64,000 bases of DNA, taken from contig NZ_BAABKV010000001.1 in assembly GCF_039544005.1 (NCBI RefSeq), positions 4,836,001 to 4,900,000 of the forward strand, given 5' to 3'. The translations under genes were made by a program, and so were the position numbers. The stretch comes from Kitasatospora paranensis. GTDB taxonomy: Bacteria > Actinomycetota > Actinomycetes > Streptomycetales > Streptomycetaceae. The notes beneath the pieces were generated by a model. The model ran no database searches and was not told where the DNA came from. It saw only the letters and a program-made list of their open reading frames with translations. Shown here piece after piece: positions 25,209 to 28,172 of this stretch (positions within the stretch are counted from its first letter, which is position 1; the number at the start of each line of letters is the position of its first letter).

Positions 25209-26425
25209 TCAGTGCGCGCCGACGGCCTCGGGAGCCGGAAGCCGGTCGCCCGGCAGCGCCGCGCGGAACCACCCGCGGCAGCCGAACAGCAGCAGAGCGC
25301 CCGCCCCGATCCCGGCCACCGCGCACAGCGCGACCTGGAACAGCGAGGCGTCGACCAGCGCCCCGGAGACGGCGTACCCCGCCGCGTTGCCGGTCGCGAA
25401 GAGCGTGATCAACCAGGCGAAGGCCTCGGTGACCGTGCCGGTCGGCGCCAGTTCGGCGACCAGCACGAAGGCTGCCGCCAGCAGCGGAGCCAGCCCGACG
25501 CCGGACAGCAGCGCCAGCCCGGCCATCGCCCACGGCGCGGGCAGCGACAGCAGCGGCACGAACGAGGCGGCCATCAGCAGGGCGATCACCCAGGTGCGGG
25601 TGGCGGTGCTGGAGCGCCAGCGCACCGCGCCGTAGCCGAGCGCGCCCACCAGCCCGCCGACCGCGGCCAGCGCCAGCAGCAGCCCGGCCCCGCCGGGCAG
25701 CGCGCCAGGGTGCCGCTCGGCGTACGCGATGAACAGCACGCTCTGCGCGCCGACCGTCCAGCCGGCCCCGGCCAGGCCGACCAGCAGCAGGACCAGGCCG
25801 GGGAGCGCAGCGGGCCGAGCAGGCCGGCGGAGGCGGACCGGGCGGGGGCGCGCCAGGAGCGGGCCGGTCCGGCCGTCGCCACCACCAGTGCGCCGAGCAG
25901 GCCGAGCGCGGCCGCCGTCCACAGGGCCGCCGACGGGCCGAATCCGGCCGTGATGCCGGCCACCGCGAGCGGGCCCGCGACGTAGAGGATCTGCTGCGAG
26001 GCGGAGTCGAAGGCGTAGGCGGTGTCGAGCTGCTCCTCGGCGACGACCGCCGGCCACAGGGCCCGCAGGCAGGGTTCGAGCGGTGGCATGGCGAGGCCGG
26101 CGAGGGCGGCGCCGGTCAGCGCGGCGGCCGGGGAGCCGGGGGCGACGGCGAGCAGGGCGTAGCCGAGCCCGGCGACGACGGCGGTGGTCAGCAGGACCCG
26201 GGGCTGGCCGGTGCGGTCCACGATCCGGCCGAGCACCGGTCCGCCGATCGCGGCGGCGATGGCGTACGCGGCGGTCGCCAGGCCGATCCTGCTGTACGGC
26301 GCGCCCGCCTCGCGCAGGGCGAGGGCGATCACCAGGCCGGTCATGCCGGCCGGGAGACGGCCGAGGAGGGTGCCGAGGAGGAGCCTGGAGACGTGCGGGG
26401 CGCGGAGCAGCGCGAGATAGCCCAT
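25209..26425 (-). CDS. MFS transporter (frameshift near 25800-25803)
   Basis: A permease of about 405 residues after one base is restored. The N-terminal half (LRAPHVSRLLLGTLLGRLPAG, loop motif GPVLGRIVDRTGQPRVLL) and the C-terminal half (LVLLLVGLAGAGWTVGAQSV onward) are in different frames. They meet at a four-G/C run (25800-25803), where one extra base gives a continuous protein with about 12 helices. The ATG start lies 7 nt from a perfect 14-bp palindrome in an unusually AT-rich patch, suggesting tight repression. The substrate is unknown. Confidence 0.78.
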
Positions 26426-26432
26426 ACCTGAA

Positions 26433-26446
26433 GTTATACGTATAAC
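26433..26446. promoter_or_regulatory. perfect palindrome GTTATACGTATAAC, putative operator
   Basis: This 14-bp self-complementary sequence lies 8 nt upstream of the MFS start codon (26425, minus strand), inside an AT-rich island that contrasts with the surrounding GC-rich DNA. It could overlap the -10 of the minus-strand promoter. Position and symmetry suggest an operator for a dimeric repressor; the repressor is not encoded beside it. Confidence 0.6.
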
Positions 26447-26525
26447 CAGAGCGGTCGGTCAATCGAGGCCCTGGCGGGGCGGGCTGCTTCGTGGCCGTAG
26501 CTCACGGCGTCTCTCAAACAAGAGC

Positions 26526-26556
26526 TTTGAACATCTCAAATGTTTACTGCTAATCT
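26526..26556 (+). promoter_or_regulatory. promoter (TTGAAC-18-TAATCT) with overlapping operator-like inverted repeat
   Basis: TTGAAC at 26527-26532 and TAATCT at 26551-26556 are 18 nt apart, a good housekeeping sigma promoter. Transcription would start near 26562-26564, at the ATG of the Cys-rich leader. TTTGAACATCTCAAA (26526-26540), a perfect 5-bp inverted repeat, covers the -35. A second TCTCAAA at 26512-26518 gives a 22-bp direct spacing. Confidence 0.6.
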
Positions 26557-26563
26557 TCCGGCC

Positions 26564-26725
26564 ATGACCACCCCAGGCGCAGCCCACCGGCACGGGACGA
26601 GCACTCCGCTCGCCCCCTGCGGCGCGCGCCCGGACGGTGCCGGCCGTACCCGCGCCTCCCACCGCACCCGGGTCGCCGGCTGCGCCTGCGCCCTCGGCTG
26701 TATCTGCGCCTCCAGCTGTATCTAG
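26564..26725 (+). CDS. Cys-rich leader peptide (53 aa) upstream of symporter
   Basis: Short reading frame whose last 14 codons before the stop contain five Cys (CACALGCICASSCI), with one more Cys near residue 19 and several His/Arg in the middle. It begins at the predicted transcription start, so translation would be leaderless. The stop lies 106 nt before the symporter ATG. Actinobacteria have known Cys-rich leader peptides that couple cysteine availability to downstream expression, and the DAACS family includes cystine importers. I infer an attenuator-type uORF. An upstream in-frame ATG (26540) overlaps the promoter and is unlikely. Confidence 0.6.
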   Translation: MTTPGAAHRHGTSTPLAPCGARPDGAGRTRASHRTRVAGCACALGCICASSCI

Positions 26726-26831
26726 GCGGCACGCCTCCTCCCGACCCGGGCCCTTCCCCGCCCGCGCGTCCCGCCGTGCCGCCGCGCTCTCCCCTCCCCC
26801 GCCTGCCGCCCCACTCCGGAGTCGCATCCCC

Positions 26832-28172
26832 ATGCCCACCGCGCCCACCACGCCGGCCGAACCCGACACGTCCGGCCCGCTCGCCCGGATCCGCCGGACG
26901 CCCTTCTGGGCCCAGATCGTCGGCGGCCTCGCCCTCGGCCTGCTGCTCGGCGGCATCGCCCGCGCCGGCGACGTCTCGTGGCTCACCACCACCCTCGACA
27001 CCATCGGCAAGACCTTCGTCCAGCTGCTCAAGCTGGCCGTTCCGCCGCTGGTCTTCACCGCGATCGTGGTCAGCGTCGCCAACCTGCGCAACGTCACCAA
27101 TGCCGCCCGGCTCGCCGTCCGCACCCTGCTCTGGTTCCTGATCACCTCGCTGATCGCGGTCTCCATCGGCCTCGGCCTCGGCCTGCTCACCGACCCCGGC
27201 CAGGGCGCCGGCCTGTCCACGGAGGGCCTCAAGGCCCCCGAGGAGGCCGGCAGCTGGGTCGACTTCCTGACCGGGATCATCCCGACGAACATCGCCACCA
27301 CGTTCGTCGAGGTCAACGTCCTCCAGATCGTCTTCCTCGGCATCGTCACCGGCGCCGCCATCCTGAAGATCGGCGAGAAGGCCGAGCCGGTCCGCAAGCT
27401 CGGCGAGTCCGTCCTCGAACTCACCCAGACCGCCCTGTGGTGGGTCATCCGGCTCGCCCCGCTCGGCACCCTCGGCCTGATCGGCAAGTCCGTCGCCAAG
27501 TACGGCTGGGACCTCCTCGCCCCCTTCGCGACCCTGACCGCCGACGTGTACGTCGGCTGCGCCCTGGTGCTGTTCGGCGTCTACTCGCTGCTGCTGCGCT
27601 TCGCCGGCGGCCTCAACCCGCTCAACTTCTTCAAGGGCGCCTGGCCGGCCATCCAGCTCGCCTTCGTCTCCCGCTCCTCGGTCGGCACCCTGCCGGTCAC
27701 CCGCCGGGTCACCGAGCGCCTCGGCGTCCCGAGCGAGTACGCGTCGTTCGCCGTCCCGTTCGGCGCGACCACCAAGATGGACGGCTGCGCCGCGATCTAC
27801 CCGTCGCTCGCCGCGATCTTCGTCGCCCAGGTGTACGGCATCCACCTCGGCATCGGCGACTACCTGCTGATCGCCTTCGTCTCGGTGATCGGCTCCGCCG
27901 CCACCGCGGGCCTGACCGGCGCGATCGTCATGCTGACCCTCACCCTCTCCACCGTCGGCCTGCCGCTGGAGGGCGTGGGCCTGCTGCTCGCCATCGACCC
28001 GATCCTGGACATGGTCAGGACGGCGACGAACGTCGCCGGACAGGCGGTCGTCCCGATCCTGGTGGCGGCCCGTGAGAAGACCCTCGACCGCGACGCGTAC
28101 AACAACCCGACCGGCGACCTGCTCGCGGCCGAGGCCGTGAAGGTCGCGGAGCCGGTGGCCGTCGCCGCCTGA
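26832..28172 (+). CDS. dicarboxylate/amino acid:cation symporter (DAACS; cystine or C4-dicarboxylate uptake)
   Basis: A 446-residue inner-membrane symporter of the SLC1-like DAACS family. Helices begin with FWAQIVGGLALGLLLGG. The first hairpin region is SRSSVGTLPVT, the TM7 substrate motif reads TTKMDGCAAIYP (NMDGT-type), and the C-terminal part ends DPILDMVRTATNVAGQAV, which supplies the Asp/Asn substrate contacts of the family. The GCA-IYP variant resembles, from memory, the TcyP cystine-transporter branch more than GltP. This agrees with the Cys-rich leader upstream, but substrate is not proven. ATG at 26832 has GGAG about 11 nt upstream. Confidence 0.85.
   Translation: MPTAPTTPAEPDTSGPLARIRRTPFWAQIVGGLALGLLLGGIARAGDVSWLTTTLDTIGKTFVQLLKLAVPPLVFTAIVVSVANLRNVTNAARLAVRTLLWFLITSLIAVSIGLGLGLLTDPGQGAGLSTEGLKAPEEAGSWVDFLTGIIPTNIATTFVEVNVLQIVFLGIVTGAAILKIGEKAEPVRKLGESVLELTQTALWWVIRLAPLGTLGLIGKSVAKYGWDLLAPFATLTADVYVGCALVLFGVYSLLLRFAGGLNPLNFFKGAWPAIQLAFVSRSSVGTLPVTRRVTERLGVPSEYASFAVPFGATTKMDGCAAIYPSLAAIFVAQVYGIHLGIGDYLLIAFVSVIGSAATAGLTGAIVMLTLTLSTVGLPLEGVGLLLAIDPILDMVRTATNVAGQAVVPILVAAREKTLDRDAYNNPTGDLLAAEAVKVAEPVAVAA

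Follow-up and report, generated by a model that had tools for sequence, protein, structure and literature searches.

A polycysteine leader of Mycobacterium smegmatis, reportedly studied by Canestrari in 2020, is said to fold so that a ribosome binding site (RBS) is hidden, and a ribosome stalled on the leader to free this RBS. Citing papers speak, in the passages concerned, of translation attenuation for the mycobacterial leaders (PMC13236596, PMC9031893), and gene control by ribosome speed is proposed in part of this literature for the leaderless polycysteine ORFs Ms5788A and Ms4527A. For the leader ORFs of actinobacterial cys operons, the relevant passage of Seliverstov 2005 (PMC1262725) states that no conserved terminator-like hairpin was found. 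The S. lividans metL leader before metNIQ was published as methionine-dependent, according to the section of PMC8079986 that deals with it. Another group of leaders is described by the curated profile NF042934 (cis_reg_atten, 'putative leader peptide', HVDL-type). Searches of the open-licence literature returned nothing on NF042934 or the Ms leader names, and nothing on a Kitasatospora leader peptide with cysteine attenuation.

Here we describe a leader ahead of a DAACS symporter gene in Kitasatospora paranensis. The window, a stretch of 64,000 nt that was analysed as a whole, lies on the genome's single contig (8.41 Mb). The leader is a conserved, frame-locked Cys leader of the known actinobacterial kind, in a new form. 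It resembles the NF042934 leaders in promoter geometry, in the 39-nt offset between promoter and frame, in N-terminal sequence, in having Cys codons ahead of the stop, and in preceding the same gene as in Streptomyces. Unlike them, the Kitasatospora leaders of the symporter lack RLHVDL (the four that were tested went unmatched), are longer, have their stop on or inside a hairpin, and carry a Cys codon at a fixed distance from that hairpin. They share a short, putatively leaderless Cys frame ahead of a gene with the mycobacterial ORFs, but most of them lack a contiguous Cys run, and sequestration of the RBS is unsupported in the Kitasatospora and Streptomyces folds. Compared with the cys-operon leaders, as the passage in PMC1262725 presents them, the Cys codons near the stop, the lack of a terminator and a pyrimidine-rich candidate Rho region are held in common, whereas the conserved hairpin locked to a Cys codon is particular to Kitasatospora. 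The metL leader, in the section of PMC8079986 that describes it, is likewise leaderless and without RLHVDL, with a C-x-C...C tail, a transporter downstream and no clear terminator; it differs in its published methionine dependence and in the gene concerned. Its tail is given there as C-M-C-R-R-M-C, and metL may be a cysteine leader.

Promoter, leader frame and symporter gene

The preliminary description of this DNA had proposed that a TTGAAC-18-TAATCT promoter fires at the ATG of a 53-codon frame with five Cys in its last 14 codons, and that the symporter begins 106 nt after the stop. Each of these elements was found in place (coordinates refer to the window, + strand unless stated otherwise). 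The -35 element TTGAAC (26527-26532) and the -10 element TAATCT (26551-26556) are separated by 18 nt, and TTGA and TAnnnT occupy the equivalent places in all 64 Kitasatospora loci. A generic sigma-70 promoter scan found 0 promoters and left this one unlisted. The leader ATG (26564) lies 7 nt past the -10 element, which suggests that the transcript begins at the ATG and is leaderless. The frame (26564-26725) has 53 codons plus a TAG stop at 26723-26725 and encodes six Cys, five of them within the final 14 residues. The symporter ATG (26832) lies 106 nt past the leader stop.

The -35 region is overlapped by a dyad, CTTTGA-N5-TCAAA (26525-26540), which has one exact match in the genome, at this -35. 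The Streptomyces form of the dyad, CTTTGAG-N3-CTCAAAG, is present at many Streptomyces loci. The dyad may provide a second, protein-based layer of control. Further upstream, a divergent MFS transporter gene (25209-26425, - strand) is split across two frames, its N-terminal part being a 279-aa ORF and its C-terminal part lying in an overlapping 417-aa ORF; this is either a frameshifted gene or a sequencing error. The perfect palindrome GTTATACGTATAAC (26433-26446) is situated between the MFS gene and the promoter of the leader. It recurs upstream at several other Kitasatospora loci and is probably an operator.

The symporter (26832-28172, 446 aa) belongs to the DAACS (SDF) family (PF00375, E 2e-106) and scored below the cut-off of all four NCBIfam models that it matched. 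The motif KMDGCAAIYP is present, as had been noted; the proposed placement in the TcyP branch is no more than a possibility. Pairwise comparison put the protein at about equal distance from E. coli TcyP (32.5% identity, 150 bits), GltP (30.0%, 169 bits) and DctA (28.0%, 153 bits). In TM7 it has GCAxxYP and a one-residue insertion as in TcyP, the only features that favour TcyP and suggestive at most; an Arg in TM8 is common to GltP and TcyP. Possible substrates are cystine or a different sulfur amino acid, and also acidic amino acids; we infer that the substrate contains sulfur.

The leader frame is conserved and locked to a downstream hairpin in Kitasatospora

A symporter ortholog was identified in 66 of 70 Kitasatospora genomes, the other four having no match at 1e-100. 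The upstream set comprised 64 loci, the window included; G046 (contig edge) and G055 (partial match) were excluded, and L066-L077 and L087 were left outside this count. Every one of the 64 upstream regions contains a short, putatively leaderless frame with conserved Cys codons ahead of the symporter start. It begins 39 nt after CTTTGAA with ATG (57 loci) or GTG (7), is 38 to 65 codons long and includes 2 to 6 Cys codons. The last Cys codon (26717-26719 in the window) is TGT in 64/64 leaders, and the penultimate one is TGT in 57/64. The last TGT is followed by A, four variable bases and GGCG in all 64, a TGTA that could be kept for an RNA reason. Conservation of the terminal Cys codons had been set beforehand as a test of the proposed attenuator, and the last two codons bear it out; the density of five Cys per 14 codons belongs to the window strain alone among the leaders listed.

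A hairpin was detected between leader and symporter. In the window its 5' arm, GGCGGCACG (26725-26733), begins on the G of the leader stop codon and its 3' arm, CGTGCCGCC, lies at 26775-26783, with a predicted stem probability of 0.78. The stem has 9 bp and the loop in Kitasatospora is mostly about 35 to 70 nt. The distance from the last Cys codon to the 5' arm is 5 nt in 64/64 loci, and the position of the leader stop relative to the first base of the arm takes the values -2 (14 loci), 13 (25), 16 (24) and 19 (1), a range of 21 nt. When measured from motifs only, with the ORF unused, the promoter-to-arm distance assumes 15 values, all of which are 2 modulo 3 (64/64). The phases of hairpin length (26/24/14 of 64) and of the hairpin-to-symporter length (23/22/18 of 63) are scattered.

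Pairing of the nine stem positions holds in 99.6% of cells across the 64 sequences, compared with 27 to 61% when the partner was slid along, and RNAalifold independently recovered the identical nine pairs. Double-changed cells numbered 19, against 3.0 +/- 1.4 in shuffled alignments (0 of 500 shuffles reached 19), with 18 of the 19 coming from nine related sequences that have one common variant. Counted by stem pair, double changes occur in 3 of 9, which is not above chance (1.9 in shuffles, 85 of 500 reaching 3).

Folding was then compared with and without a ribosome, represented by a simple 28-nt or 31-nt block rather than a real ribosome. The stem was predicted at a probability above 0.5 in the free leader in 64/64 loci, with the mask on the first Cys codon in 64/64, and on the penultimate one in 62/64. 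Once the mask covered the final Cys codon or the stop codon the count was 0/64, a result that follows from the overlap of mask and arm. In this masked folding, the position of the ribosome on the Cys codons alters the structure of the downstream RNA. The idea that a conserved antiterminator pairs with the 5' arm was rejected, as the best complementary segments were scattered and the commonest position accounted for 11/64 Kitasatospora loci.

The element TGTA-N4-GGCGGCACG, allowing up to 1 mismatch, had 33 matches (3 exact) in the genome compared with 16 for a reversed control; among the 15 of 33 matches that were examined, the 3' arm was present only at the symporter locus. No Rfam family matched the window at its gathering score, and at E up to 5 the only match was a microRNA model (17.9 bits vs a gathering score of 71).

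The leader appears to be a diverged relative of the HVDL-type family

The window leader and three other Kitasatospora leaders had 0 matches to NF042934 at E up to 10. The leader of one Streptomyces locus (L121) scored 26.0 bits (E 4.9e-6), within 1 bit of the 27-bit cut-off, and that of a second (L145) scored 14.8 bits, also below it. Comparison of profiles built from 26 Kitasatospora and 28 Streptomyces leaders with hhalign yielded an N-terminal alignment of 19 columns only, at E 2.1e-5 and a probability of 77%. As promoter, 39-nt offset and downstream gene are also common to both sets, the window leader looks like a diverged descendant of an HVDL-type leader that NF042934 misses, a reading that we hold with moderate certainty.

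Leaders of the NF042934 type also occur elsewhere in this genome. The profile gave 22 matches at E up to 10, 5 of them above the cut-off; in a control search, 10/14 well-known genomes had matches and none exceeded it. Eleven of the loci were examined, 10 of which had the motif, and 5 of those 10 were below the cut-off. Downstream products were assigned from the best frame within 700 nt for 9 of the 10 motif leaders (L154 excluded). They include nitrite/sulfite reductase, 3-mercaptopyruvate sulfurtransferase, SsuE and cysteine dioxygenase; cysteine synthase follows one leader but is not the first frame there. The remaining genes are NtaA/DmoA monooxygenase, 2OG oxygenase, DUF4395 and an NMT1-like gene. 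Since the NMT1-type product is ABC binding protein-like, a transporter is not a new type of target for these leaders, as the preliminary description had supposed, even within the same genome.

In 9/10 of these leaders (L146-L152, L155, L157) the final Cys codon reads TGT. Of the 157 Cys codons that 25 long window frames contain, 25 are TGT (Fisher p 2e-6 for the comparison), as are 12 of 99 across the 30 symporter genes counted in Kitasatospora. This codon bias makes it attractive to think of UGU as a sensor codon that would be read more slowly.

Streptomyces loci are predicted to use mutually exclusive pairings

Orthologous loci outside Kitasatospora were drawn from the best 80 of at least 586 confirmed relatives; 67 of these, mostly Streptomyces, are non-Kitasatospora (L078-L145 without L087). 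An HVDL-type Cys leader was present in 65/67, and in 56 of the non-Kitasatospora loci the leader begins at the 39-nt offset from the CTTTGA promoter. The remaining two (L113 and L134), together with L189, contain no leader, and the symporter ATG itself is positioned 39 nt from the promoter. From this arrangement, the three loci appear to be natural deletions of the attenuator. Among 20 further family regions, at least 3 of which duplicate named loci (L175 = L081, L185 = L083, L191 = L113), 13 had an HVDL-type leader, 2 had a Kitasatospora-like leader (TGT, 5 nt, GGCG) without HVDL, 2 lacked a leader and had the symporter start in its stead, 39 nt from the promoter, and 3 had no leader that could be seen.

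The codons for C-R-C-M in the Streptomyces leaders (TGCCGCTGTATG, segment 1) can pair through as many as 12-13 complementary bases with CATGCAGCGGCG (segment 2), usually 7 to 20 nt past the leader stop, for which a later GCGCCGC (segment 3) is an alternative partner. The 1:2 pairing was above shuffles at the 5% level in 43/65 Streptomyces-type loci and not above in 22/65. Masking 31 nt at the first regulatory Cys codon (54 of 67 loci) lowered P(1:2) from 0.81 to 0.07, a drop that is partly built into the mask. P(2:3) went from 0.04 to 0.55, rising in 46/54 loci and falling in 8/54, and this rise is not built in. A ribosome at the Streptomyces Cys codons is thus predicted to flip the fold of the leader. 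In one subgroup (L119, L120, L122, L130, L136, L138, L140 and L145) the leaders contain CCC or CCCC, and the Cys run, instead of C-R-C-M, is complementary to (A)CAGCAGCGG past the stop; the pairing partner appears to have shifted when the Cys codons did, but this complementarity does not exceed that of shuffles.

The output stage

The preliminary description had suggested that ribosome stalling exposes or extends the symporter message, and exposure at the RBS would correspond to the mechanism reported for M. smegmatis, with a fold that hides the RBS of the symporter and a stalled ribosome that frees it. The Shine-Dalgarno (SD) sequence GGAG (26818-26821) is 10 nt ahead of the symporter ATG, a spacing found in 64/64 loci. 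When the window was folded alone, SD accessibility rose from about 0.03 to 0.24-0.25 with the mask on the last Cys codon, as a translational output would require. However, the Kitasatospora mean was 0.073 in the free leader vs 0.080-0.084 with the mask on that codon (p = 0.07 at 0.084), the Streptomyces values were 0.20 and 0.21 (p = 0.20), and the SD had the neighbouring tract as its main partner (0.66-0.67) whether or not a mask was applied. As accessibility was nearly constant in both genera, SD sequestration was rejected as the main model, and exposure of the message at the RBS was not borne out; a Cys sensor with translational output is a rather unlikely reading of these data.

The stretch between hairpin and SD (26784-26816 in the window) is C-rich, G-poor and rut-like. 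Its length varies from 29 to 53 nt in the 64 Kitasatospora loci, and C makes up 64% and G 13% of it, compared with 42/34 in the leader ORF and 43/29 at the start of the symporter gene. It lacks a U-run: within the 20 nt that follow the stem, T runs reach at most 3 in the 64 loci, and an intrinsic terminator scan of the window was empty. These two results speak against classical trp-type attenuation with an intrinsic terminator, which the hairpin between leader and gene and the mutually exclusive Streptomyces pairings would otherwise suit, and we regard it as improbable. Judged by its composition, the tract looks like a Rho-loading site. It is exposed in either conformer, so a Rho step is a weak point of the model.

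A constitutive leader might only insulate or stabilise the message, its hairpin and Cys codons having no sensing role. The hairpin is indeed predicted in free RNA at all 64 loci, and some genomes keep the symporter and yet have no leader. Such a leader would leave the phase lock, the fixed TGT, the kinship with NF042934 and the 1:2/2:3 switch unexplained, and we give this explanation little weight.

Among similar Kitasatospora leaders (153 non-independent pairs), differences at codon positions 1, 2 and 3 numbered 738, 681 and 648, with no third-position excess, although high G+C may by itself damp third-position differences in this comparison; if the peptide sequence is unimportant, no such excess is expected. 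In 26 of the 64 leaders, which were aligned, 4 of 65 columns are invariant. The frame and the Cys codons are therefore conserved, and most of the peptide is not. As the stop shifts from leader to leader and most residues besides the last Cys are variable, a cis-acting ribosome sensor fits better than a functional peptide. That the frame encodes a functional small protein, such as a Cys-rich metal or redox peptide that neighbours the symporter by chance, is very improbable, with the MTT start and C-R-x-x-[SG]-C tail common to many of the 26 aligned leaders on its side and the variation in length, residues and stop position set out above against it.

A model for ribosome-mediated control

We consider it likely that the leader acts as a ribosome-mediated, cysteine-responsive attenuator ahead of the symporter. 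This part of the earlier proposal is well supported in kind, by the Cys codons at all 64 loci and by the closeness of a Streptomyces leader to the curated family; its exposed-message mechanism is not. Transcription would begin at or beside the ATG of the short frame, and the leaderless message would be translated by a ribosome that moves across the Cys codons at a pace presumably set by charged tRNA-Cys. This progress would decide, while the RNA is being made, whether the hairpin between leader and symporter is present. With 5 nt between the final Cys codon and the Kitasatospora hairpin, a ribosome that pauses at an earlier Cys codon is predicted to leave the hairpin intact, whereas a ribosome that has advanced to the final Cys codon or to the stop would cover the 5' arm and open it. 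In Streptomyces, segment 1 would pair with segment 2, and a held ribosome would free segment 2 for segment 3.

Cysteine shortage would be expected to raise symporter expression, mainly on physiological grounds, since cells low in cysteine ought to make more of an importer that such a sensor controls. The starved form in Streptomyces is predicted by folding to be the 2:3 pairing. In Kitasatospora, 2:3 would likewise stay formed while a ribosome pauses at an earlier Cys codon, and the sign would match that of Streptomyces; a pause at the last Cys codon would reverse it. The output would most likely be the prevention of Rho-type termination on the C-rich tract.

Tentatively, the Kitasatospora leader may be a distance-gated sensor rebuilt from an HVDL-type leader. 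The base of the hairpin, 5 nt past the last Cys codon, would be near the mRNA entry of the ribosome, and a single slow UGU would decide whether the hairpin opens, without an antiterminator. The Streptomyces 1:2/2:3 switch would be a second architecture, accompanied by natural deletions.

These results would extend Cys-leader control at the symporter locus to a genus that the curated profile leaves unmatched, as judged from the four leaders tested, and would link a symporter that is still uncharacterised with the supply of cysteine or sulfur. They would also provide a natural series for terminator-less attenuation in actinobacteria, formed by the predicted switch of Streptomyces, the fixed-distance hairpin of Kitasatospora and the lineages that have no leader.
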